A model generated the notes under the pieces. It saw only the letters and a program-made list of their open reading frames with translations, ran no database searches and was not told the DNA's origin. From contig CM037864.1 in the NCBI GenBank assembly GCA_021292105.1, positions 41,654,514-41,718,513 of the forward strand: a stretch of DNA of 64,000 nucleotides, read 5' to 3'. The DNA comes from Anadara kagoshimensis. Taxonomy: Eukaryota > Mollusca > Bivalvia > Arcoida > Arcidae. Below are positions 8,047 to 61,000 of the stretch, one piece after another (positions within the stretch are counted from its first letter, which is position 1; every line of letters starts with the position of its first letter). The position numbers were made by a program, and so were the translations under genes.

Positions 8047-9559
8047 CTACGGCAAGGTTTTTGTGTTCCACCAATTAACTACGGCAAGGTTTTTGTGTTC
8101 CACCAACTGTTATATTCTTAAACATGTGGTTATTCACGGTATTTCGCAAACTAGGCCGTTTGTTAATTAATACATGGAATTTAAGGTCTTGGAATATAAA
8201 AGTTTTAAAATAAAATGTTTTTTTGTTCCTTTACACCAGTTTATTTTCAAAAAGTGTTCAGAAAAAAAACTTCGTCTGTATTTTATTGCTAGGAGACATT
8301 TTTGCATTCTATGGAATAAACTTCAGTTAGAAATTCCTAAGTGACTGATAAAATGAACACTTCCAATAAAACTGGAGATAATAAGGCTAAATGTATGATT
8401 TTGTTCATAGCATATCATAAAAACAATGACCCATCGTTACAAATAACAAGTTACACAGCATTGTGTATTGACTAAAACAGTTTGTGTGCCAATAGTGCAA
8501 TATATGAGAATATATCGTAACAAAGTACATTAAAAATGCCCTGTTAGCAATAACAATTTTGTTCGGCCTTACCGATGAATAAAATAGATATCCAGTGTAC
8601 TTTTTGGATAGTTTTTTTTCTTCTAACGAGCAAGTATCGTTTAAGCTCGTTTATACAACAAATAAGCAATAGTGTTTGAAAGCATTCAGATTTCGCTAAA
8701 TCCATACAAGTGAAATGAAATAATATGTGGTTGAATAAAAAAACCTTCAAAGTCTGGAATAGCCATTGCAAAAAGTAAATGAACGAAATAATAAACCATA
8801 TACACAATGTGTATTTTGAGTTTCCCTTGTATTGTCTCCTCCATAGTGCGTTTTAGTGTTGTTCTTATATGTGAAATGTTTGCGCTATAATGTTTGGATG
8901 TAATGAAAACATTTGTCTCAATAAGATCTGCTTAGAGTATTCTTGATTGATACACGATGTGTATTCAGACTGTTGAGGTTTGGTATCATCACTCATGACA
9001 ATAAATAAGTTTGTACAAAACGTGACTTCTTCAGTAATGGCTACATCATTCCTGTTCCTCTTGTTGATGACATGTTTAACCGTGTATTCTAGTGTTATCC
9101 TGATTGCATCTTGCCATGTGGTATACGTGAGTAAAACACTTAGCCAGTAAGGTAACATGTGTAAAAACGTTATTTATGGTAGCTGTTTCTTATATTCGCA
9201 ATAGCTATTTTGTATTTTCGAAATAGTATTTTCCAAATAACCACCTAACTATCACACTTGTCACTTTCCTTAAAAATTATACAGCGTATTCGGTATAATT
9301 ATTATAGAAAATACATTTTCTGAACCATATACGACACAGCGGTAATAAGCATTCGGGAAACTTGGGTTTACAAAGTAGATGAATTAGCCGAAAATAATCT
9401 GCACGGTGTGTAGACATACATATTTCAACAACAATTCAACTTGTGGATCCATTCGTGTTCAGTGGACGGGTTAAGAATAAGTATCAGCAAAATTGTATGC
9501 ACCATAATGCAAATGTTTCAATAAGTTGGCTAAAGCCAGCTAGCCTTATGACACAAGGA

Positions 9560-10300
9560 GTGTGTACCTAACTCTGAAATCGCTGGACCGATTCAAACCA
9601 AATTTATTGTGTACCTAAACTCTGAAATCGCTTGACCGATTCAAACCAAATTTAGTGTGTACCTAAACTCTGAAATCACTTGACCGATTCAAACCAAATT
9701 TAGTGTGTACCTAAACTCTGAAATCGCTTGACCGATTCAAACCAAATTTAGTGTGTACCTAAACTCTGAAATCGCTTGACCGATTCAAACCAAATTTATT
9801 GTGTACCTAAACTCTGAAATCGCTGGACCAATTCAAACCAAATTTATTGTGTACCTAAACTCTGAAATCACTGGACCGATTAAAACCAAATTTAGTGTGT
9901 ACCTAAACTCTGAAATCATTGGACCGATTCAAACCAAATTAAGTGTGTACCTAAACTCTGAAATCACTGGACCGATTCAAACCAAATTTAGTGTGTACCT
10001 AAACTCTGAAATCGCTTGACCGATTCAAACCAAATTTAGTGTGTACCTAAACTCTGAAATCGCTTGACCGATTCAAACCAAATTTATTGTGTACCTAAAC
10101 TCTGAAATCGCTTGACCGATTCAAACCAAATTTATTGTGTACCTAAACTCTGAAATCGCTGGACCAATTCAAACCAAATTTATTGTGTACCTAAACTCTG
10201 AAATCACTGGACCGATTAAAACCAAATTTAGTGTGTACCTAAACTCTGAAATCACTGGACCGATTCAAACCAAATTAAGTGTGTACCTAAACTCTGAATT
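9560..10300. repeat. 48-bp minisatellite (~15 copies) with higher-order structure
   Basis: The unit reads roughly TGTGTACCTAAACTCTGAAA plus TCGCTKGACCGATTCAAACC plus AAATTTA. The period is 48, so one frame stays open and reads a 16-residue repeat (YLNSEITGPIQTKF core). Variant units recur at 9801 and 10137, which is 336 bp or exactly seven units, so there is a higher-order repeat. There is no start context, splice context or homology to support coding. A TTTA array follows directly. Confidence 0.9.
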
Positions 10301-21500: not shown

Positions 21501-22145
21501 TTTCTGTAACAGCTATTGTTAAAGTATTCACTGGCATGCTATAATAATTTATGTTAGTGGAAGCGCGTGGCCTAGTGGTTAAGGCATTGGACTCGTGATT
21601 CGAAGGTTGTGGGTTCAATTCCTGGACCGGGCGATGTGTTGTGTCCTTGAGCAAGACACTTAATTTCACGTTGTTCTAGTTCACTCAGCTGAAAAATAAA
21701 TGAGTACCAGCAAAATGCTGGGGGTTAACCCTGCGATGAATCGGCGTCCCATTCAGGGGAGAGTCTTGTACTCTCAGTTGCTTAACGCCAACGAAACCGG
21801 GATAAGCTCCAGCCTGATGGGCCTAATGGCTCGGGACAGACTTTAAAACTTTAACTATAATAATACATGTAATAACAATTGTTAACTAATGTGTTTTTGT
21901 TGTCATCATTTTCAGAGGATGAATCGTGGGACTTAATCACTTGTTTCTGTTTAAAGCCTTATGCTGGACGACCAATGATAGAGTGTAATGAATGCAACAC
22001 ATGGATACATTTATCTTGTGCAAAAATCCGTAAAACAAATATCCCAGACATATATGTTTGTCAGGAATGTAAAGACTCGAAATACACAACCAGGAAATCC
22101 AATCGTATCCGAATAGACAATACTAAGTTTACTGATGAAGTATAG
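11377..22145 (+). CDS. PHF13: PHD finger protein of the PHF13/PHF23 family
   Basis: Five coding exons with GT-AG introns and matching phases: 11377-11572, 11941-11981, 17883-17987, 20716-20848, 21916-22145; predicted 234 aa. Exon 3 encodes [19 protein letters not shown], matching the basic KRRRTxEDFNKFC N-terminal motif of vertebrate PHF13/PHF23. Exon 4 is Ser/Asp-rich. Exon 5 encodes SWDLITCFC, then [21 protein letters not shown] and YVCQECK, a complete Cys4-His-Cys3 PHD finger. In this family the finger reads H3K4me3 and the protein acts in the nucleus on chromatin. The start is uncertain. ATG 11961 in exon 2 (MDRHEYE) aligns best with the vertebrate N terminus and gives 162 aa; exon 1 is open but matches nothing I know. 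The vertebrate C-terminal tail after the finger differs. PHF13 and PHF23 cannot be told apart here, so the symbol is a family label. It converges with AATF. Confidence 0.9.
13985..14395 (-). pseudogene. Decayed IS630/Tc1/mariner-type transposase fragment
   Basis: Read on the minus strand, about 14385-14160 encodes [17 protein letters not shown], then [12 protein letters not shown] and [14 protein letters not shown]. This is the conserved C-terminal end (FFLWGYLKxKVY...L...I...R...C....GxHLE) of a widespread transposase family. An in-frame TAA interrupts it after 'VDTC'. Further along comes CAGGGTGTCCCAAAACATG, which resembles the outer terminal repeat of such elements. The N-terminal and catalytic parts are missing, so it is a dead remnant in intron 2 of the PHD-finger gene. 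Confidence 0.6.
14555..15330. repeat. Dispersed ~200-bp repeat units interrupted by a SINE
   Basis: Three related segments (about 14565-14610, 14745-14790, 15285-15330) share GCCACTGCTTAAATATTTAA and GGAGTTATCC. Intervening sequence is similar between the first two. The family A SINE at 14920-15274 sits before the third unit, separating it from the others. Confidence 0.6.
14920..15274 (-). mobile_element. tRNA-derived SINE (family A)
   Basis: It matches the 7730-8046 element along its length: GTTTAACGCCCAGTCAAGAA at the left, GGCATTATACGGCAGGG inside, and an ACGGAGCGAGCACTCTACCA head at the right. The reverse complement of that head is a tRNA-like A-box region. It has diverged and the B box is partly lost. 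Confidence 0.8.
17040..17335 (-). mobile_element. tRNA-derived SINE (family D)
   Basis: The reverse complement of the right end gives a tRNA-like head with GGTTGTGGGTTCTAGCCC as B box. The body contains TTCATTTGGCAACTGGATGG, whose reverse complement recurs in a related copy at 56380-56590 in the opposite orientation. It lies in intron 2 of the PHD-finger gene. Confidence 0.6.
18362..18511. repeat. (CT)n and (CA)n microsatellites
   Basis: A CT run at about 18363-18386 and a long CA run at about 18453-18510, both in intron 3 of the PHD-finger gene. Confidence 0.95.
18672..18896. mobile_element. 225-bp MITE, copy 2
   Basis: It starts TAGGCAAACAACATTGAT and ends GTCAATATTGTTTGCGTA, the same termini as the 6102-6318 element. 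Shared interior words include CACTACCCATG and AATGAAAGGTC/CAATTGAAAGGTC. Two independent positions with the same ends define a mobile family. Confidence 0.7.
21555..21850 (+). mobile_element. tRNA-derived SINE (family C), near full length
   Basis: The head GTGGCCTAGTGGTTAAGGCA carries an A box, and GGTTGTGGGTTCAATTCC a B box. The body has ATGAATCGGCGTCCCATTCA and a conserved-looking tail AGCCTGATGGGCCTAATGGC. It sits about 65 bp before the last exon of the PHD-finger gene, close to that acceptor. The tail resembles shared SINE core domains, but I cannot assign the named superfamily from sequence alone. Confidence 0.8.
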
Positions 22146-32400: not shown

Positions 32401-35400
32401 ACAATCAAAATCATTGTGACATCATAGCGCATGTAGGTAAGACAGAAAAATATTAGGTTGCATCTGAATATATATAATAGATAAAAGGGCATGTTACCTG
32501 TTCAATTTGTTTCAGTGCAGACTGTTCAAAAGCACTAAATGATTTACTGTTAATTTTACCACCAGCCAATCTCGTCTTGTCATTCCACTTCTGTATGGTA
32601 ATATTTCTGTTAAACATCAAATTTGTAAAACCATTAAAACAACATCATTTTTGTTTTTATTTGATTTTTTCAAAGCTGAGAAAACGTGATATAGAAAGTG
32701 ATGGTTATATTATGAAAGATTTGATACATATTACTTCATGCAATTTCAACACATAATATAACTTTTATTTACCCATTTCTGTCCAAAATTTTAGAATTTT
32801 AGGATTATAGGTAAAACCTGTACTGGGATATAAAATCGCCATCCCCTAACTAAGTATTGACAAATTATTATTTTGTTACCTGAATGTCTGAAAATCTTTG
32901 TGTCGTTTTGCAAGGAATTCTGGGTAATCTGTGATTTTCTTTATTCTTTTCATCCCAGCTTTAAACTTGGGTTGACTGACGACCTCTTCCTGCGCCTCAT
33001 CTTCCGAACCGCTGGTAATTTCTTCATCATCATCATTGTCGGTACTTTTTGAAGTCTTAGATTTTCTACAAAAGTTTATTTATAACATGTAAGAACACAT
33101 CAAAACAAAACAAACAAAATGCAAAATACAATGTATAAATAAACATAGGTATTTATATTTTTTTCTGTAAACATATTATGTTAGCAATTTCCGCAATGAT
33201 ACAGTAGTACTAATTTAAACCCATCACCAAATTAAATACCATCGTACTACACAAGATGATCCATGATTTATTTAAGCTAATTCAAGTCCATGTGAATTTA
33301 CCCAAATTATAATTTGTTCTCAAATTTATATACAATGAAATTGGTACACACTTAAATAAATACATTTACAGTATTATCAACTGTCACAAACAAAGTACAA
33401 ACAACACAATGTACTTACGATGGTGTTTCTGATTTATCACCAGTAATGACATGTTCTGTCTCTTTATTCTGTAGCATCAGTAAAGTCTGTAACTGTATCA
33501 GTTTGTCTAATAAAGTCTTCAACATCTGCTGAGCTATAATATACAAAACAAACAAGTTTCAACAATGTATCAGTTTGTCTAACAAAGTCTTCAACATCTG
33601 CTGAGCTATAATATACAAAACAGACAAGTTTCAACAATGTATCAGTTTGTCTAACAAAGTCTTCAACATCTGCTGAGCTATAATATACAAAACAAACAAG
33701 TTTCAACGATGTATCAGTTTGTCTAATAAAGTCTTCAACATCTGCTGAGCTATAATATACAAAACAAACAAGTTTCAACAATGTATCAGTTTGTCTAACA
33801 AAGTCTTCAACATCTGCTGAGCTATAATATACAAAACAGACAAGTTTCAACAATGTATCAGTTTGTCTAACAAAGTCCTTCAACATCTGCTGAGCTATCA
33901 TATACAAAACAGACAAGTTTCAACAATGTATCAGTTTGTCTAACAAAGTCTTCAACATCTGCTGAGCTATAATATACAAAACAAACAAGTCTCAACAATA
34001 TAGTCTATAACTGTATCAATTTGTTTAACAAATTTTTTTTCTCAATGACTGCTGCCCGAAATACAGATAAATAATGTTACAAATTTGTAAAGCACTATAA
34101 ACTGGTATCTATTCATCTAAGTAATTGTAGGTCAAAGTTGCCAAGATAAAATTTTGGATAGCGATGAAACCATCTCAATGTTAAAAATACATACATGTGA
34201 CATGCCGATTGCCAAAGTGAAATCCCTCTATTAATTTTAATCTTACTTTGCTCAGTCTGCTTAAATTGCTTTTAAGTTGTAAGTGCCTCTGTAGCTGCCA
34301 CAGGTGGCCTACTCTTTTTAGAACTCCTGAGAGGTGTCTTTAGCATGCACTGAGACACTGAACATCAGTTTTAAGTCTCATCTCAAAGACTTAACTAGTA
34401 TTTAGCTTTTTACAGCTCTGGTATGGGCAGGAGATGAAAATCATCTCAGAAAATTTCCAAGTCTCGATGAGGTTCAAACCCACAACCCTTTACTTTGAAA
34501 GCCAGTAACAGTACCACTCGATCATGTCCACCCATTAATATTAGTTCAATAAGATTTTCTAGGATGTTGAGTTAAAATATGAAATGAGAAATTCCTATTA
34601 TAAGTTTAAAACTGGAGTCCTGGACTTGATAAACATTTTAACAAATAACCTTTTCACATACACCCTGCTTACCTGATGAAGCTTTCTCTTGAAACTTCTC
34701 TCCCCCTGATTCTTCAAATGTCTCCCAGGTGTCAGGCTGTGGGAGTTGATTGACAGCTGTTACTACCTTTTGTAGTTTTATTCTTCCTTCCAATAAACCA
34801 TCCCAAAGTTCTAAAATATAAAATAGATATATACATATATATTTAAAAATATGTGTATATGGTGTACTCTAAATGTTGAAGGGTAAAAATAAAACTACTT
34901 CAAAATTCTCAAGATTCTCTATTTCTCAAAATATAACAATTAAAAGTTATTTCTTAAGTTTTTGAAATGCAAAAATGTGTAAACTACATGTATTTTTCAA
35001 TAAACAAACTATAGGCTAGACCTTAGGAAATCCAAATATCCTATTTCAGTGTTTGTCTGTACTTCTAAAAGATTGTATAGCCACTTTCATCTACTTTTGG
35101 GATGCTTTGGCAACACTGCAAACAAATATGAATTGCAAAGGCCCATATATGACAAAAATAGCTGTTGTAATAATATTGATGCATGCACACACATACATAC
35201 TCTTTGCTATACCATAAACTCACATGATTCTTCACAGATAAACATAGATGACCAATCAGTCAATTATACTAGTACTGAGCCAAGCAGAAAAGGAAAATGT
35301 TGGGGTCAAACACACAGTGGTAAGACAATTTGGGTTTGAAGGCTAATGCCTGAACCACTCGGCCACCATAGTCCCATACTTGCCTATCTTTTCTTGAGAC

Positions 35401-40314: not shown

Positions 40315-42235
40315 ATGCAAGGGAGTTTGAAGAAAGTCGTCCAGAAACAAGCATACGACATTCTTTCTCATCGTTATGGAATACTTATTGTGTTAGCAGC
40401 TATTGTCATCATTACAGTATCTGCATTTCATTTTGGAGAGGTAGGTGGACCACCTTTTTCACCCCCCCCCCTTTACATGATGCACTAATGAATGTTCAGT
40501 AGGGAGTTACAACACTGCTGAGTTCAAATGATATTTAAAGCAGCAGTAATGTTTGCAAGATGAGTCATTGACTTGCCATCACTTAGCACTCATTAGTCTA
40601 GAAATCATTACTAGAATAGTTTTTCAGATGAGACTCAAAACCGAGGTCCTAGCTGTGACACATTGCACCCTAAAGACACCTCTGTAGAGCTCGAATAAGA
40701 GTAAGACATCTATGACCCCCAGATTTGTACAACTAAAACCGACCGAAACAGATTGCGCAAGATAAGATAAGTAATAACAACTGTACAGTGATATTCCCAT
40801 TTCTTTCAGGGGGACTATACACTTGTGGTGGGCTGGACTTGTCAGATGGCCAGGTCCTGGTTTTGCCACTGCATTTTTCCATATCCTGTAATACACTAAT
40901 AAATTAGAAATCTACATCTGTATCTGATCTAATGTAGAAACCACCATTGGTTGGTTTTAATGGTGGTGTCTGTGTAGGGAGTTTAAAACCTTTCAATGGT
41001 GTTTCCATGAAGTCTCTAACACTTGCAAAATATAGGTTGCTAAAACAAAATCCTCAAAATTAAGACTAACCAAATCAGTCAGAACCACAAGTCTAATTTA
41101 ACATAATTATATTGGTATAGGTGAATTTTTGTAATTATTTGTGTATTTATTTTCAAAACACTGTACCCTAAAAGTTACATATCAATATCTATATTAATAT
41201 ATATACGTATTTGCAAAACTGAATCTTCAAAGCAAGACTGGCTAAGTAAGATAAAGCACTTGTAACAAATATAAAAGTGAGGGGGATAAGCATTGCTTTA
41301 AGATAGCAATTTTATACTGTTTTCATACTATATAGTAGCTCATTGAATATTCTGGTGTATCTCATTATTTTGTATTTTAGCACTTGCCATAATTATGTCT
41401 ATTTGTTTATAAATTCAGATATTCATGTTTACATTTACTTATTATTTCAGGCAGTGTTGGAGTGGAGCCATGAGAAGTATGCTGTAGTGTTTAACTCTTA
41501 CAGTGATAACCTGGCTGGTCGTTCATTTAGAGAAAGGTATGTGGAAACTTCCAAAAAAGTTTGACCAAAAATGACTATAGAATTTTTCATAGAATTTGAG
41601 AAAAAAGACATTTAAAGGTCGCCGGTCACCAAAAACCGAATTTTTTTTTAGTACTATTTTCCGAAAGATTACATCATAAAAAGTCGATTTAGCCACAAAT
41701 AACATTTTTTAATCATTTCTGTCCTTTTTTACAGCGTAAATTAAAGTCCTAAAACTGTTAAAAATTGTGTTATCTCCCTTTGGTAGTAAAAGGGCACAAA
41801 ACCGGAAGTGACGCAGAAGGTGTTATCCCAGCTATTTAGTAAATGAAGCTTGTATAGTGAACTGTATTTATTACTCAGATTTATCGGAAATAACTTCTAG
41901 TGTTTTTATATATTTATTTATTTTTTTAGCATTGGGTATTTCAGTTTCCTTCAGCAGAAAAAAATAAATAATAAACATAATAATCAGAAACAAAAACAAA
42001 TAAAGAAAAAAAAACTATATTTGTGTTTGCTCTATGTATGATATACTATTTACTAATACTATTACAAAACATAATTTACATTATTTATTTATTTATTTAT
42101 TTATTATTTTTATCTATTTATCACACCGAATTAATAAAAAGAACACACATTTTTGTCTTTTATTTAAAATATTATTCATATTTATTTTCATTAATATTTA
42201 ATATCATTCTGATTATCCTTATATCTCTTTTAAAT

Positions 42236-45700: not shown

Positions 45701-46060
45701 TCTATTAAAATTGTCACTTATTTGGTGGTTGTCTCCCTTGGGCAAGGTTCCAGTCAAATGTTCACTTGCTGGATTGCCGTATCCTTTGTAAAGGATTTTA
45801 TTAAAGGTATACATCTGTAGTTAGAATTATAGTCATTTCGTACCATGACCATTTCGTACCATCCATTTCGTACCATATCAACTACCATTTCGTACCATGT
45901 CCATTTCGTACCATGACCATTTCGTACCATAATCTTTGACCATTTCGTACCATACACTCAAGCCATTTATCATTTATAAAAACTACATAACTACCATTTC
46001 GTACCATATAATAGTTAAGTGTTTCCAATTCCTACAATAAATTTCGTATCATATTGAAAG

Positions 46061-46091
<31 letters not shown>

Positions 46092-49000
46092 AACATAGTT
46101 CTTGCATTATACAGTAACGGTTCTTCAATGAAAACTCAATAAGACGAACATCTTCAAATGGAAAAAACACTTGGACTTTGAGAATCTATGTTAAAAACGA
46201 TGTTTTTTGCTGAACTATGGACATCAGATCAAAAATAAAGGCCGGGTCACAAAATTTACAAATGATAAAGTGGAGAATTTTATCAATGTTCTTTTTCTTC
46301 CTGTTATTCATATCAGGCTAATTAATACATGTATTAATAAGAAACACTTAAAAAAATCTTATCAATAAAGAACCTTTTTTTTTAAAATATAATCAACAAA
46401 TAATGTCATTATATTTTATAAATATGGTACGAAATGGTAGTATTTTCCGGCATGTGCAGATTTTGAATGCATTATTTTAATAAAATTTGCAAGTCATTTC
46501 GTACCATAGAAATGGAAAATTTGGGTACGAAATGGTCATGGTACGAAATGGTTATGGTACGAAATGATCATATGGCATGGTACGAAATGGACAGAGTTGG
46601 GTACGAAATGGTAAATTTGGGTACGAAATGGTCATGGTACGAAATGACTAGCTTCGTGTAGTTAAACTTAAGCATAAATTCATTAGATAATTATTCCTTT
46701 CAACTTAGATCAGTGACCAGGGATGAGAAAGGGTAAGTTTGTATCAGTAATGAATTTGCTTGGAACTTCAAACATTTTACAACTCTATAGAACAATGGTT
46801 ATTTGCTTATGTTTTAATCTTTCTTAGCTAGGAGATATTATTGATAGTTATGAGACAGTAACTCAGTTACCATAATTTAAAACTTTAATATTGTATATTT
46901 TCTGCATTCACATGGAATTTTTTTTATTTTTCCCAATTTTGTTCTATTAAAAGCATGGATTAATCTATGTTTAACAATTTTTTTTCAAGTCTCACTTTTA
47001 ACAAGTTTTCTTTTTTTCAAATCTCACTTTTAACAAGTTTTTTTTTTTCAAATCTCACTTTCAACAAGTTTTTTCAAAGTGAAAAAAGAAAAAAGTTTCA
47101 AGCAAACTCTGCTGGTTACAAGATGATTTAATTTTATCTATGTATACTGGTTATGGCATCCAGCTTATTTATCTCCATTTTAAATGGCTAGAATAAAATC
47201 TTGCACAGTAAATTACGTTGGTTACTATGGTAATATATATGTACATTGTATGTTTATAAAATAGCTTAGAATTGTATACAGTGTATGTCGAATGCTGAAA
47301 TGCTTAATGTTGAAATGAATCCGCATGAAAATCGAGCTTGATTATAATGGGATAAATGTGTAAATACTATGGAAACCAAATAAGATAAATAAGAAATCTG
47401 CAGATCACACGTCTCACTTGAAATGTGCTTCTTTAAGAAAACTTTAACAACATTTTTGTACATGATAATTCCTGACATAGTATGACGCATGAAAAAAATA
47501 CATTATTTCTATGACTTTAGTTTCAGGTGAGACAAAAACCAATGTGGTTATGGCTATTTGTTTTAGGTTGCATGCTGTTGTTGCAAGAATGTGATAATAC
47601 ATGTATATATTAGCTAGAAGTATATAATGTTCTATGTCAAAATAAATATCTATGCTGTTTGTTTTTTGGTATATTACTTTATATTGGTCAGGTTTGTGTC
47701 TTGCATTTCACCTAGAAGAAAACAACCTCCTTTGCATTAGTTTGTTAATTAAGTGTAATGTAACTGATTTATGGTACTCATTGCATGGCTATGGCAGTTC
47801 GTTATACATGTATTACATAGCAATCATAACTCACAAGAACCATAAGTTGATCCATATTTTCTCCCTTCTTTTCTGAGAGACTGGGCAAAAAACTACTTTT
47901 GGAACAACATTCTCTCCCTTTCTTCTTTTAGCCTTTCCCTACCTTCCCCCACTTTCCCCGCCTTCTATCATCCATCATTTCTCTTCTTCCTACTTTTCAC
48001 CTTTTCTTGCCTACCAATTTTTTGTCTCCATCCCTTATTCCTTCCAAATATCCCCTTCTACTCTCTTCGCTCTTTTCCTTTCCCTCCTTTCCCACTTCTA
48101 CTTTCCCTCCTTTCCAATCCCTTTTCATCCCTACCCACTTCCCCCTTCCACCTTTTCCACATTTCCATTTCCAATTCTTACTTTCCTTTCCTTCTTTCCC
48201 ACTTTTCCCTTCCTCTCTTCTCTCCCTCCCCTTCAAACTTTTCCCTTTGCTTGACTTTCTACTATTTCCTCTCCCTCTTTTCAGGTTTGATTCACATTCA
48301 GGATAAGACAGTCAGTTCATTTGCCAAAGGAAGGTGATTTTCTCTGGGTACTCTGCTTTCCTTCACTGTTCCAGAACTTGTATCTTGAATATAAGTGAAT
48401 TAATCTTGATGCCGACATAAAACATATGTCACCTACCACATCTTATCAGGTAGTCAGAATAATTCTGTCACATATGTCACAGAGTCACATAATTGAATTG
48501 GTACAAAAAGTTGCTGAGCTTTAAAGTTACCACCAACGACCTTTGGATTATCTCCCTTGTCTATGATTTACCAGACAGTGAGTTGATGAAGTTATAATTT
48601 TAATTTTTAATAAATTAACTGTTTATTATTTATTATTATTTATTTAGAGAAGAGAAGTGTGTATTCCCAAATTGCCTAACAACAAACATGGTCATCCTTG
48701 ACCCTTCTCTGCCTCCAGATATGACCTTGACCAAGCTGTCAGAGGAATACCCAGTGTTTACCAAAGCTACATCTATGAAAGAAGTCAGCTCTCATCTAGA
48801 CGATAAAATAAGATACACTGTAGTATACTTCTCCAGTGATGATGAAGGTATATATTTAATATTTAGTATTTTTTTAAAAAAATCTTTGCTCAAAAATCTA
48901 CTGTTTGTCAGTAAAAAGCATACCAAAACAAGTTATAACTGAAATGGGATGCAATTTCAAAAATGTCCCCAAACAAACTCCATCTTGGAAGTCTACATGT

Positions 49001-52000
49001 ATGTTTTCCAAACCATATGCATGATCATAGTACATGTAGCCAATGGCATATCTACTACACCCAAAAATTGATATTGTGAAGTTTCATAAAGATAATAAAA
49101 AAAAATGTTAAATAGATTTTGAGAAAAGCGACAGACTAAATGTTGTCAGAAAAATGGAGTAAAAACTGTAACACTCCCCACTTCAGTTGGGGGAAATAAT
49201 AATCAGTTCTTGGTTTCAAAACAATTTAGGTAGAATAAAATGTTATTGAATCATATTTTGGAAATCTTGAAGTAATTCTTGTTCATATCACACAAATAGG
49301 TACCAAATGTGACATATGTGATATATAAAGAGAATTTAAAGTCAACTATGGACTTTATAGATTAATGGTCATAACAGCAGGTTCTACAGTGCTTCATCTT
49401 AGAAAGAGGGGGTATTAAATTCAAGTTTTCATCTGTTCTTCTTTCTTTCCGTCTGTCCAAATTCTTGTCCGCAGGAATTCTCCAAAACTATGAAGCACTA
49501 TTTACTAAAACTAAGTGCAAAGTATCAACATAGATAGGAGATGTACATATCTTTAACCTGGGTTGGTTTGCTCATTTTCCACAGTGTTATAGGCCTTTGA
49601 ATGTTACATAAGTGCAAATCACAATGAAAGAACCTGCTGGCAGAGGATCCTAATTCACTGAATTTGCTTGTTTTATTTCAATTGATTTTAGTCAGTTGCA
49701 ATACTGTTTTATACTGTTGTGATTAAAATGATAAATTAAATGTTTTTGATTTTCAGTGAAAGAGTCCTTGTCAACACATCTGATGATTAACCAGTTAAAT
49801 ACAACAATAAAGAGAGGCTTCATTGTAAGTATGACATTTATATAATACTTTATCAAACACACCACTTATTTACAAAACAGAGATTAAACAGATTCAGCTT
49901 CATAAGTATTGTATAAGAAGAAACATTCACAATTCTATGAAATTTGTGAAAGCATAGTCCTGCTAAAATAGGTTACTTTTTGAAAGAATTTCTCAGGAAT
50001 AAGCAGCTAATGATGATTGTAGCTAACAGGAATGGAAACATAGCTTCTGATATAAGTTTATGAGATTGACACCTTCTTGACTTTTATCTATTACACATTT
50101 ACTTTCAGACAAGTGATTGGACAGTACACAACAGTATTCTGATGTCAGACATTATTATTTTGTGTTTATTTTCAGACAAGTGATTGGACAGTTCACAACA
50201 GTATTCTGATGTCAGACATTATTTTGTGTTTATTTTCAGACAAGTGATTGGACAATACACAACAGTATTCTGATGTCAGACATTATTATTTTATGTTTAT
50301 TTTCAGACAAGTGATTGGACAATACACAACAGTATTTTGATGTCAGACATTATTATTTTGTGTTTATTTTCAGACAAGTGATTGGACAATACACAACAGT
50401 ATTTTGATGTCAGACATTATTATTTTATATTTATTTTCAGACAAGTGATTGGACAATACACAACAGTATTTTGATGTCAGACATTATTATTTTATATTTA
50501 TTTTCAGACAAGTGATTGGACAATACACAACAGTATTTTGATGTCAGACATTATTATTTTGTGTTTATTTTCAGACAAGTGATTGGACAGTACACAACAG
50601 TATTCTGATGTCAGACATTATTATTTTATGTTTATTTTCAGACAAGTGATTGGACAATACACAACAGTATTCTGATGTCAGACATTATTATTTTGTGTTT
50701 ATTTTCAGACAAGTGATTGGACAATACACAACAGTATTCTGATGTCAGACATTATTATTTTGTGTTTATTTTCAGACAAGTGATTGGACAGTACACAACA
50801 GTATTCTGATGTCAGACATTATTATTTTGTGTTTATTTTCAGACAAGTGATTGGACAATACACAACAGTATTCTGATGTCAGACATTATTATTTTATATT
50901 TATTTTCAGACAAGTGATTGGACAATACACAACAGTATTTTGATGTCAGACATTATTATTTTATATTTATTTTCAGACAAGTGATTGGACAGTACACAAC
51001 AGTATTTTGATGTCAGACATTATTATTTTATATTTATTTTCAGACAAGTGATTGGACAATACACAACAGTATTCTGATGTCAGACATTATTATTTTGTGT
51101 TTATTTTCAGACAAGTGATTGGACAGTACACAACAGTATTCTGATGTCAGACATTATTATTTTATATTTATTTTCAGACAAGTGATTGGACAATACACAA
51201 CAGTATTCTGATGTCAGATATTATTATTTTGTGTTTATTTTCAGACAAGTGATTGGACAGTACACAACAGTATTGTGATGTCAGACATTATTATTTTATA
51301 TTTATTTTCAGACAAGTGATTGGACAATACACAACAGTATTCTGATGTCAGACATTATTATTTTATATTTATTTTCAGACAAGTGATCGGACAGTACACA
51401 ACAGTATTTTGATGTCAGACATTATTATTTTATGTTTATTTTCAGACAAGTGATTGGACAGTACACAACAGTATTCTGATGTCAGACATTATTATTTTGT
51501 GTTTATTTTCAGACAAGTGATTGGACAGTACACAACAGTATTTTGATGTCAGACATTATTATTTTATGTTTATTTTCAGACAAGTGATTGGACAGTACAC
51601 AACAGTATTTTGATGTCAGACATTATTATTTTGTGTTTATTTTCAGACAAGTGATCGGACAGTACACAACAGTATTTTGATGTCAGACATTATTATTTTA
51701 TGTTTATTTTCAGACAAGTGATTGGACAGTACACAACAGTATTCTGATGTCAGACATTATTATTTTGTGTTTATTTTCAGACAAGTGATTGGACAGTACA
51801 CAACAGTATTTTGATGTCAGACATTATTATTTTGTGTTTATTTTCAGACAAGTGATTGGACAATACACAACAGTATTCTGATGTCAGACATTATTATTTT
51901 ATGTTTATTTTCAGACAAGTGATTGGACAATACACAACAGTATTTTGATGTCAGACATTATTATTTTGTGTTTATTTTCAGACAAGTGATTGGACAATAC

Positions 52001-55000
52001 ACAACAGTATTTTGATGTCAGACATTATTATTTTATATTTATTTTCAGACAAGTGATTGGACAATACACAACAGTATTCTGATGTCAGACATTATTATTT
52101 ATATTTATTTTCAGACAAGTGATTGGACAATACACAACAGTATTTTGATGTCAGACATATTATTTTGTGTTTATTTTCAGACAAGTGATTGGACAATACA
52201 CAACAGTATTTTGATGTCAGACATTATTATTTTGTGTTTATTTTCAGACAAGTGATTGGACAATACACAACAGTATTTTGATGTCAGACATTATTATTTT
52301 GTGTTTATTTTCAGACAAGTGATTGGACAATACACAACAGTCATTATTATTTTATATTTATTTTCAGACAAGTGATTGGACAATACACAACAGTATTTTG
52401 ATGTCAGACATTATTATTTTGTGTTTATTTTCAGACAAGTGATTGGACAAAACACAACAGTATTCTGATGTCAGACATTATTATTTTGTGTTTTTTTCAG
52501 ACAAGTGATCGGACAGTACACAACAGTATTTTGATGTCAGACATTATTATTTTGTGTTTATTTTCAGACAAGTGATTGGACAATACACAACAGTATTCTG
52601 ATGTCAGACATTATTATTTTGTGTTTATTTTCAGACAAGTGATTGGACAATACACAACAGTATTTTGATGTCAGACATTATTATTTTATATTTATTTTCA
52701 GACAAGTGATTGGACAATACACAACAGTATTCTGATGTCAGACATTATTATTTTATATTTATTTTCAGACAAGTGATTGGACAATACACAACAGTATTCT
52801 GATGTCAGACATTATTATTTTGTGTTTATTTTCAGACAAGTGATTGGACAATACACAACAGTATTCTGATGTCAGATATTATTATTTTGTGTTTATTTTC
52901 AGACAAGTGATTGGACAGTACATAACAGTATTCTGATGTCAGACATTATTATTTTGTGTTTATTTTCAGACAAGTGATTGGACAGTACACAACAGTATTC
53001 TGATGTCAGACATTATTATTTTGTGTTTATTTTCAGACAAGTGATTGGACAGTACATAACAGTATTCTGATGTCAGACATTATTATTTTATATTTATTTT
53101 CAGACAAGTGATTGGACAGTACACAACAGTATACTGATGTCAGACATTATTATTTTATGTTTATTTTCAGACAAGTGATTGGACAATACACAACAGTATT
53201 TTGATGTCAGACATTATTATTTTATATTTATTTTCAGACAAGTGATTGGACAATACACAACAGTATTTTGATGTCAGACATTATTATTTTGTGTTTATTT
53301 TCAGACAAGTGATTGGACAATACACAACAGTATTCTGATGTCAGACATTATTATTTTATATTTATTTTCAGACAAGTGATTGGACAATACACAACAGTAT
53401 TTTGATGTCAGACATTATTATTTTGTGTTTATTTTCAGACAAGTGATTGGACAGTACACAACAGTATTCTGATGTCAGACATTATTATTTTGTGTTTATT
53501 TTCAGACAAGTGATTGAACAGTACACAACAGTATTCTGATGTCAGACATTATTATTTTGTGTTTATTTTCAGACAAGTGATTGGACAATACACAACAGTA
53601 TTCTGATGTCAGATATTATTATTTTGTGTTTATTTTCAGACAAGTGATTGGACAGTACATTACAGTATTCTGATGTCAGACATTATTATTTTGTGTTTAT
53701 TTTCAGACAAGTGATTGGACAGTACACAACAGTATTCTGATGTCAGACATTATTATTTTGTGTTTATTTTCAGACAAGTGATTGGACAGTACATAACAGT
53801 ATTCTGATGTCAGACATTATTATTTTATATTTATTTTCAGACAAGTGATTGGACAGTACACAACAGTATTCTGATGTCAGACATTATTATTTTATGTTTA
53901 TTTTCAGACAAGTGATTGGACAATACACAACAGTATTTTGATGTCAGACATTATTATTTTGTGTTTATTTTCAGACAAGTGATTGGACAGTACACAACAG
54001 TATTCTGATGTCAGACATTATTATTTTGTGTTTATTTTCAGACAAGTGATCGGACAGTACACAACAGTATTTTGATGTCAGACATTATTATTTTATATTT
54101 ATTTTCAGACAAGTGATTGGACAATACACAACAGTATTCTGATGTCAGACATTATTATTTTGTGTTTATTTTCAGACAAGTGATTGGACAATACACAACA
54201 GTATTCTGATGTCAGACATTATTATTTTATGTTTATTTTCAGACAAGTGATTGGACAATACACAACAGTATTTTGATGTCTGATATCATTATGATGTCTG
54301 GATTCCCATACAAATTAACTGAAGAAGATATAAAACAGAAACTACAGGAGAAGTACACCAGAGGAATAGACAAGGTGATGAGACATGGACCTACTTACAA
54401 AGTTTAGGGGGATATAAGAATTACCTGTTGGTCTGGCTGTCTGCCTCAATATCGGGTCTGCTATATATATAATCCATCTGTATAGATGAATTTTGATCAA
54501 ACTTGGCACAAATGTAACCCAACATGAGACCCTGTGTTGCATACTAAATTCAGGTGCATAGGTCAAGGGCACAAGGTCATTTGTTGGGAATAGGTGGTAT
54601 TTTTCTTCAAAGAGAATGCTCTGGTTTACATAAGTTAAATTTAAATAGTATTATAATGCATGTATAACAATAGTTGTGACTGATTTTATCATAGAAATGA
54701 ACATGCAAAGTTTGGACTGGTGGAACTGTCATTGGCTTTTGAAGTCAGTGGATCCAAACTTCACTACCAACTTGAAACATTCACCAACTGTCTATACAAT
54801 AGATTTTTCAGAGGATCTTTTAGTTGAGAGTAAAAACTAAGATCTGTTATACTCATATATAAATATATAAAGACAAGAGTTAAAAAAACTGTTGGCCCCT
54901 TTAGATGACTGTTAATAAGGCCAAAAATAATAAATTCTGTGTTTCTGATAAGTCAAAATGTGAAACAATTTACTTCTTCCAAAAAGCTTAACATCATGAT

Positions 55001-58000: not shown

Positions 58001-61000
58001 TTTCATGTATAGCTGTTGATGTGCAGATATAAGTGAAATATTCTTGACCAGGGCATAAAACCCAAACCCATCAATCCATTTTCTAGAGGCACTGTATCAT
58101 TTAAAAAATATCTTTATTTATAGATTATAGATTTTGGCAATGCGTTGAATTTATAAACATATTTTTTGTTAGTTATTATTTATTTCAACTCTTTCCACCA
58201 TTTTTAAACTGTTGCACAAATCAAGTGCATTGTCCTACTGTTTATTTTGTGTAAATATTTTCTTATCTGTCCACCAGGTTTATTTAACATGGCCTGTACC
58301 AAATTGTAATGAAGGTTGTCCATCATCATGGATTAAAGATGGTTACTGTGACAAAGCTTGCAATAATACAGAATGTGAATGGGATGGAGGGGATTGTTCA
58401 GGTAGGTTGTTACTAGTTACATGTTGTCATGGTTACTGTGACTGGTGACATGTTGTCATGGTTACTGTGACTGGTGACATGTTGTCATGGTTACTGTGAC
58501 TGGTTACATGTTATCATGGTTACTGTGACTGGTGACATGTTGTCATGGTTACTGTGACTGGTGACATGTTGTCATGGTTACTGTGACAAAGCTTGTAATA
58601 ATACAGAATGTGAATGGGATGGAGGGGATTGTTCAGGTAGGTTGTTACTGGTTACATGTTGTCATGGTTACTGTGACAAAGCTTGTAATACAGAATGTGA
58701 ATGGGATGGAGGGGATTGTTCATGTAGGTTGTTAGTGGTTACATGTTGTCATGGTTACTGTGACAAAGCTTGTAATAATACAGAATGTGAATGGGATGGA
58801 GGGGATTGTTCAGGTAGGTTGTTACTGGTTACATGTTGTCATGGTTACTGTGACAAAGCTTGTAATACAGAATGTGAATGGGATGGAGGGGATTATTCAT
58901 GTAGGTTGTTAGTGGTTACATGTTGTCATGGTTACTGTGGCAAAGCTTGTAATACAGAATGTGAATGGGATTGAGGGGTTTGTTCAGGTAGAGTGTTACT
59001 GTTTACATGTTCTCATGGTGAATGTTATGGGGAAGTTATTGCCATGGCAACAGTGGTAAATTGGCATGGTGAATGTGATATTGTTGTGAAAACAGTGGTG
59101 TTGCCAGTTAAAACTATTCAATCACTTACAAAGACAGTCAATGATTTTTTATACTTGCTCAATTTTTTTTGTTGAGTCAAAGGTTTTAAGCTTAAACAAT
59201 GCATTTGGTTTACTTTTAATAAAATTCATAGAAACTGTTTCATATTATTGATTAATTGATTAGTGTAGAGAAATAGATATATCTTATCCTGTTGAAAATG
59301 AGCTACATGCAGACTTACAGTTTTATTATATTTTTGTTACCAAGGTGACAACAGCAGACCTGGTGTTGGTAATTGGGGATCAGCTGGTTTATATGCCGTT
59401 TCTGAGCAACGTAAGTAAATAACTTCATTATGCATGTATGTATAGAAATGAACTTCATTGTGGAATTAAACATAGAGAAATAGTGTGTGATAAAGTAATT
59501 CAAGTAGAGTACAACATACCAATCAAGGTTAATTGACTTTGAGGTGTCACTAGACAAACTTAGGTGACAATTTCAGGTTTATATTTTTAGAAGTCTATCT
59601 GTCAAGAAAAAACCTACCAAAGTTACTGTTACCACATTGTTCATTCCTTTACTCACAAACCTGCTATATCATCCACTATCTAGTCTCACTTCCATAAAGA
59701 TTCTACTTACAAGATAGATCTCTTCTTTGTTTCATTTATTTCAACAAGATTCAATGCCTTTATTTAAAGACCAATGTTTTTGATAATGTCTACTACAGAT
59801 ATGGTTTCAGGGGTTGAAAATTCTTCAAGCCCGACGCCTGGGACTAAAAAATAGGTTAGCAGGACTTGGCAAAAATTTTACTGAAAAGCCCATCGGGCTT
59901 AAATTCTCAGTGGACTAATGAAATTAATTTTCGACTGTCTCCTTAAAAACGATCTGTAGTCACATTGCCCCTTTGTTGTTTTCATTCATTCTTGATCATT
60001 ACAGCACTTGTAGGAAATGCTAGTTGTTGTGTAGGCTGGTCAAGTGTTCTGTTGATAAAGAAAATCTAGATCGTGATTGCAATCGCTTGAAACAAGTTTG
60101 ACATGTCGCTGTTTAAGTTTAATTTCGCGTCAAATAAGCAGTCAGAGTCTGCATCCAGTGGGGAGAAAAGAAAATTTCAGGAGAATAAAGACGCAAAATA
60201 CGACAAAGAGAAGCGCGTCAGATTATTTCAGCAGTCGTGGGTGGACTAATTCCCATGGGTCGGTTACGATGAGGATAATGCAGAAATGTTTTGTAGATAT
60301 TGCCAAAAATATCCTCTGTCAGCCCATAAACATGATGCTCTTTATCGTGGTACCAAAAATTTGCGTATTGACCCAATGAAAATACATCATTCCAAACCAG
60401 AACACTGCGCCTACAAAACACTGGGTTCAGGACCTGAATGAACCAGCAAATACAGGCATATCAAATAAGTTTTCTGACACCCCGATATTGGTCAGTCATT
60501 ATTAAAACTAGACAATAAACAAAACAATTGGTTATCAAACACTGGACTTGATAAAAAAATGTGGGCTCTTGATTTTCTGTATCAAAAAGCCCTGGGCTTT
60601 GGTTAATCTGAAAAATTTTCAACCCCTGGGTTTGTATATGCATTTTTTCTTTCTTTACCAGAATATTGTAACAAAGGATGTGCTAATTCATGGTTGGCTG
60701 ATAGATACTGCGATACTGTAAGTATAAATTTTGTGTAAAAGTATGTCCCCCAAACGGAAGTGTTTACTCCTTTTATTCTGCAAACATTTTGTTCACCCTT
60801 TTTCTCATAAACTATTTACCAGATCTTTAGTAAACTTCACAGAAACAATTTTCCTTAAGTAGACGTGTCATTGGCTATTCATATTTTGAATGCACATGGT
60901 TGGGAAAAAATGATAGATATTCTTGAAATAAAGGAACTTATTTATTTTGGACCATCATAGCTCAAAGTAAGGGTCACTGATCCGATAAATAGGTTGACAG

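Follow-up and report, generated by a model that had tools for sequence, protein, structure and literature searches.

In this work, a 67-bp minisatellite was found in intron 5 of the GNPTAB gene of the bivalve Anadara kagoshimensis, and 62 copies of the exon 6 acceptor and exon start precede the real exon in this assembly. Judged from its sequence, the array belongs to the boundary repeats known from amphioxus as mirages, with an extreme copy number. We consider it probable that it is a neutral, growing minisatellite of this kind, and that splicing uses its last copy by exon definition.

The window, i.e., the whole stretch of 64,000 nucleotides that was analysed (contig C8:41654514-41718513), comes from an assembly of 1.115 Gb in 36 contigs. 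GNPTAB lies on its plus strand with the ATG at 40315 and is apparently intact. Its 16 exons in the window share a single stop-free frame, all 15 introns are bounded by GT...AG, and the Pfam domains of the product are Stealth, GlcNAc-1 regulatory and LNR (Notch). The closest protein among the matches listed is that of Tegillarca granosa (88% identity). Exons 1 and 2, located with the T. granosa protein P0001, lie at 40315 and ~41451, which agrees with the numbering of exon 6 in the initial annotation, and in a protein-level comparison the exon 5/6 junction is continuous with P0001, with no insertion. Most of the remainder of GNPTAB, including the C-terminal membrane segment, has tblastn matches in the next 11 kb, an exception being the stretch of residues 753-790 in P0002, the scallop protein, for which tblastn gave no match. 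The exons of the gene in the window measure 56-212 nt and the introns 516-4418 nt; short exons with long introns are a layout usually tied to exon definition. Intron 5 (49825-54242, 4418 nt) is the longest of the 15.

Some other features of the window were noted in passing. AATF (minus strand, first ATG taken as 40021) and GNPTAB appear to start head to head, ~0.3 kb apart, and perhaps have a promoter region in common. Clusters of a CATTTCGTACCAT-like motif in GNPTAB intron 3 (45834-46640) have their reverse complement ~600 bp further on and, by eye, resemble the inverted subterminal repeats of a small mobile element. An apparent broken transposase-like reading frame occupies 60100-60460 in a GNPTAB intron; by eye, it looks to be of the zinc-finger/hAT type. 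A PHD finger (PF00628, E 5.9e-08) is encoded by a plus-strand frame at 21876-22142, and a 48-bp x 15.4 array (TRF) at 9559-10298 is in part open in frame as 16-residue repeats.

Table 1. Coordinates of the boundary arrays in the window and of the exons and intron that they adjoin.
Feature	Position	Strand	Basis or remark
GNPTAB exon 5 (68 nt), upstream splice partner	49757..49824	+	donor ATT|GTAAGT; continuous frame from exon 4 to exon 6; P0001 match (tblastn)
Intron 5, unique 5' part (273 nt)	49825..50097	+	precedes first acceptor ACATTTACTTTCAG, which ends at 50108
67-bp minisatellite, 62 copies of acceptor and exon 6 start before the real exon, extending into the exon	50098..54292	+	TRF; copy listing
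GNPTAB exon 6 (132 nt), opened by copy 63	54243..54374	+	donor AAG|GTGATG; sole open-frame acceptor of 63; P0001 match
GNPTAB exon 11 (LNR domain)	58278..58401	+	real donor CAG|GTAGGT at 58402
Donor-side array, 5 further copies of exon 11 end and intron start	58402..59019	+	copies at 58576, 58666, 58753, 58843, 58930
72-bp array in AATF, acceptor and exon start	33419..33999 (TRF 33494-33999)	-	7 copies; real exon 33419-33533 opened by the last (33533)

TRF reports the exon 6 minisatellite (50098-54292) as a single array with a period of 67 and 62.9 copies. When the exon-start motif is taken as the cut point, 63 copies are obtained with starts from 50109 to 54243, the last of which opens exon 6. 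The 62 upstream copies are 67 bp (57 copies), 66 bp (three), 64 bp (one) and 53 bp (one) long, and CAG precedes every one of the 63. The portion within intron 5 (50098-54242) takes up ~94% of the intron length, and the flanking sequence is unique at both array ends. A DNA search matched at least 28 places; the 28 listed all lie within this array, and a single locus was found in the assembly. Such regularity is not due to chance. A branch-point-like [CT]TGATGTC occurs in 60 of the 62 units, its A lying 33 nt before the end of the 67-bp unit; the corresponding site of the functional acceptor would fall in the exon-derived part of the preceding unit. The initial annotation had described about 62 tandem copies of the acceptor and exon start, amplified upstream until they filled the intron, and both the number and the extent are confirmed here for this assembly.

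Among the 57 full-length upstream units, 10 of the 67 sites are variable, and 21 distinct sequences with a mean pairwise divergence of 3.6% occur. The variants are interspersed; at spacings of 1-49, identical consecutive units form runs of at most three, which lies within the shuffled range. The first copy is of a common internal type, and the last has 38 nt in common with the array: the first 38 nt of exon 6 are identical to array units, which places the coding exon in the variant pool of the array. Over these 38 nt there is one mismatch to the unit consensus, at a site that is also variable within the array. Exon and consensus differ, as far as codon 16, in codons 11, 13, 14 and 15, all synonymously, as expected if the exon remained under coding constraint, and the two sequences diverge from codon 17 on; the unit reads TCA GAC ATT where the exon has TCT GAT ATC. 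It follows that each unit combines the end of the acceptor with ~50 nt of exon, as had been proposed. At exon residue 6 (Ile/Val), the 57 full-length units divide into 31 with ATA and 26 with GTA; exon 6 itself carries ATA, and Val stands at this residue in the T. granosa protein. The array variants include those of the coding exon. The pattern of identity and synonymous differences fits an exon under coding constraint from which the array would have been seeded, with homogenisation presumably still reaching the first 38 nt. Selection preserving the CAGs was considered and set aside, since 10 variable sites among 67 could by chance miss all 11 nt of the acceptor end (~0.15 by a hand estimate).

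Boundary arrays occur at two further places in the window (Table 1). At exon 11, the repeated region including the exon end spans 58339-59019 and contains a nested 29-bp sub-array; CAG|GTAG is kept in three of the five further copies, and each of the five decoy donors brings in a stop at residue 466. In AATF (AATF-Che1 PF13339, E 5e-25), the seven copies come from a search requiring AG, and TRF gives 7.0; the other exon edges of this gene are approximate. Six of six decoys there reach a stop if begun in the frame of the exon. The AATF copy at 33894 carries a 1-base insertion and opens a 151-codon stop-to-stop frame through the rest of the array. Within GNPTAB, two of the three arrays with a period of at least 25 and at least three copies touch a splice boundary, against 4-11% expected per array. 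This is more than random placement would give and counts against a neutral origin, but these arrays are too few for the excess to be leaned on.

In addition to the window, 60 exon loci were sampled from the genome (the top 30 of 87 PF00063 matches and the top 30 of 95 PF00443 matches, each with 1500 bases added on either side), and TRF arrays with a period of at least 25, from about two copies upward and with a match of at least 75%, were collected. Paralogues or near-duplicates account for several of these loci, some UCH matches span introns, and the match edges stand in only approximately for exon edges. The arrays make up 4.0% of the 204 kb and lie within 25 bp of four of the 120 match edges (3.3%), compared with 4.5% of random points, so arrays were not seen to favour exon edges in these 60 loci. 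With no exon-edge excess in the sample, the formation of boundary arrays in this genome seems to run at approximately the background rate of minisatellites. The four edge arrays include an exon end present twice, each time with its GTAAGT donor, in a UCH-family locus (L047:2531-2709), and a UCH-family paralogue pair with three copies beside the exon end on the minus strand, GTAAGT being present in two of three (L056:1315-1476 and L058:1314-1478); the fourth adjoins an edge in L032. The largest copy number sampled was 29 (L041), in loci that are too short to hold a 4-kb array whole. Because arrays longer than 1500 bases are cut by the loci, the sample cannot gauge the rarity of a 4-kb array; the exon 6 array is the longest among those seen in the window and the sample. 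Two of the sampled myosin-head regions (L022-L025, G000:C1:42.8 Mb and 43.0 Mb) lie ~208 kb apart with identical or nearly identical scores, and represent a recent duplication or unmerged haplotypes.

The initial annotation had also stated that only the last copy joins to the full exon, that decoys run into TGA, and that the acceptors are nearly equivalent. When exon 5 is joined to the upstream copies, the first stop is a TGA in all 62 (for 56 of them, 24 codons after the junction), and only copy 63 is open. The last copy is the only productive one, and under hypothetical equal use of all acceptors ~1.6% of the transcripts (1/63) would be functional. A protein search with the product of decoy use returned four proteins (one from a tick, three unnamed), whose best alignments were 34-55% identical and covered part of the query. 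On splice tables built from the gene itself (14 acceptors, 16 donors), 62 of the 63 acceptors score 10.9-13.9; the lowest score belongs to the first copy, which is preceded by unique intron. Scored with the gene's other acceptors, the last one shares the best score with eight others of the 63, so acceptor strength does not mark out the last copy and was ruled out as its marker. Only the last three acceptors, i.e., two of the 62 decoys and the real one, lie less than 300 nt from the exon 6 donor. This donor scores 2.8, against at most 0.8 for GT sites in the array, on a standard vertebrate-type table built on generally known frequencies, and 5.1 against 4.0 on the full donor table of the gene. 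On the other hand, if the own-gene table is built without this donor, it scores -0.6 and is the weakest of 16, and array GT sites reach 2.5, so that exon definition is not clearly favoured by donor strength. Since the donor ranking changes with the table, exon definition is the best explanation at hand, not a demonstrated one. Recursive splicing through the array was rejected as well, as use of the GT 4 bases past each acceptor (CAA|GTGATT) would retain 4 nt too many, with a frameshift as the result.

Mirages of amphioxus are described as tandem repeats of intron-exon boundaries, which may include either side of the exon (PMC3087553). Many of their copies are reported to have AG/GT, and the authentic copy is part of the transcript (PMC3087553, PMC3902484). 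They are given for BflGb6, BflGb9 and Adh3 (PMC3087553), and a later paper treats Adh and troponin C again and adds PGBD5 (PMC3902484). The Adh3 data and globin RT-PCR, as presented there, suggest regular splicing at mirages (PMC3087553, PMC3902484). The GNPTAB arrays resemble them in that the unit spans the boundary (at exon 6 the acceptor end and ~50 nt of exon, in 62 extra copies), in that AG/GT signals are retained (CAG in 63/63 at exon 6, CAG|GTAG in 3/5 at exon 11), and in that the authentic exon stands at the array edge, the frame being kept by the last of the 63 only. BflGb6 is reported with 6 and 3 units of 150-160 bp in two haplotypes (PMC3087553); in contrast, the bivalve GNPTAB array has 67-bp units in 62 extra copies, and the first 38 nt of its exon are identical to units. 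Copy number and identity with coding sequence are what is distinctive in the GNPTAB array. For a mirage, concerted evolution is expected inside the cluster but not at its edges; in GNPTAB the 21 distinct units are mixed along the array, and the edges are not clearly set apart. The comparison with the GNPTAB array is structural, whereas in amphioxus splicing itself was examined experimentally.

We hypothesize that a 67-bp segment across the intron 5/exon 6 junction, consisting of the branch-point-like site, the U-rich tract, CAG and ~50 nt of exon, was tandemly duplicated, and that ordinary repeat turnover would then have expanded it to 62 extra copies. Splicing would pick the last copy and ignore the array because it alone is part of a complete exon, with the real donor 132 nt away. 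Occasional use of a decoy would give nonsense transcripts, which would be degraded, and the existence of the array would require no function. The anatomy given in the initial annotation holds, and the weight of its splicing interpretation is altered, since the kind is known from amphioxus and is not unique in this genome. It had been argued that the spliceosome must pick the last acceptor, or the gene must lose a large part of its mRNA to nonsense decay; the first branch has a precedent in amphioxus mirages.

The array could instead act as a poison-acceptor rheostat, in line with the suggestion of the initial annotation that its length tunes GNPTAB output: splicing to decoys would commit GNPTAB pre-mRNA to nonsense decay in a proportion that depends on array length, and the copy number would set the output of the phosphotransferase for lysosomal enzymes. 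We regard this as unlikely. CAG and the TGA outcome in 62/62 decoys, the branch-point-like motif in 60/62 units and the narrow range of 62/63 acceptor scores are consistent with it, and an intronic VNTR of human ABCA7 is described as correlated with exon skipping and reduced expression (PMC5954066). However, CAG intact throughout is what recent homogenisation would leave (10/67 sites variable), amphioxus boundary arrays are reported without an effect on splicing (PMC3087553, PMC3902484), and arrays had no exon-edge preference in the 60-locus sample. The ABCA7 VNTR resembles the GNPTAB array as an intronic tandem repeat, its length there correlating with splicing and expression; its unit is not described in that paper as a splice-site copy, and the outcome given is exon skipping, not decoy acceptors (PMC5954066). 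It is quite unlikely, in our estimate, that the array is both a heritable dial, each added acceptor diverting a little more pre-mRNA to nonsense, and a reservoir of variants that are passed by conversion to the exon 6 start.

That a real array was collapsed or expanded in length during assembly appears very unlikely, even though near-identical 67-bp units are difficult to count and a five-unit block at 52836 is repeated at 53573 with few changes; one amphioxus mirage is noted as aberrantly assembled in a supplement legend (PMC3087553). The contigs are long (1.115 Gb in 36; C8 58.8 Mb), the 21 distinct 67-mers are interspersed and are not copies of one unit, and both array flanks are unique. 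RNA pairing between units might also loop out the array and place the last acceptor next to exon 5. All ten array segments that were folded were more stable than the dinucleotide-shuffle mean (mean z -2.1, compared with -0.18 for ten control intron segments), and a separate 286-nt piece gave z -2.0. With a better control, in which one unit was shuffled and then repeated, z was -0.68 and -1.36, and 72 and 22 of 300 shuffles were as stable; looping was rejected on this control, under which the effect shrinks, and we hold it to be extremely improbable.

Repeated splice sites within a minisatellite are reportedly also found in the human interferon-induced 6-16 gene (G1P3/IFI6), where the sites are said to be multiple splice donors. 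The 6-16 gene would be like GNPTAB in that minisatellite copies provide the repeated splice sites, with donors there and acceptors here. In the Rogers model, as cited in PMC3087553, introns are gained via tandem duplication. GNPTAB is similar in that a segment was duplicated together with its splice signals, but there is no evident new intron, and an existing intron appears to have been lengthened. No report of a mollusc boundary array was found in the open-licence literature searched, and an abalone intron minisatellite is not described as a boundary copy in its paper. Boundary arrays, which were described from lancelets, are now seen in a bivalve. Here a coding exon has its first 38 nt matching the variant pool of a non-coding minisatellite, and the gene presents a natural experiment in acceptor choice, in which one donor faces 63 almost identical acceptors that are told apart by context only.
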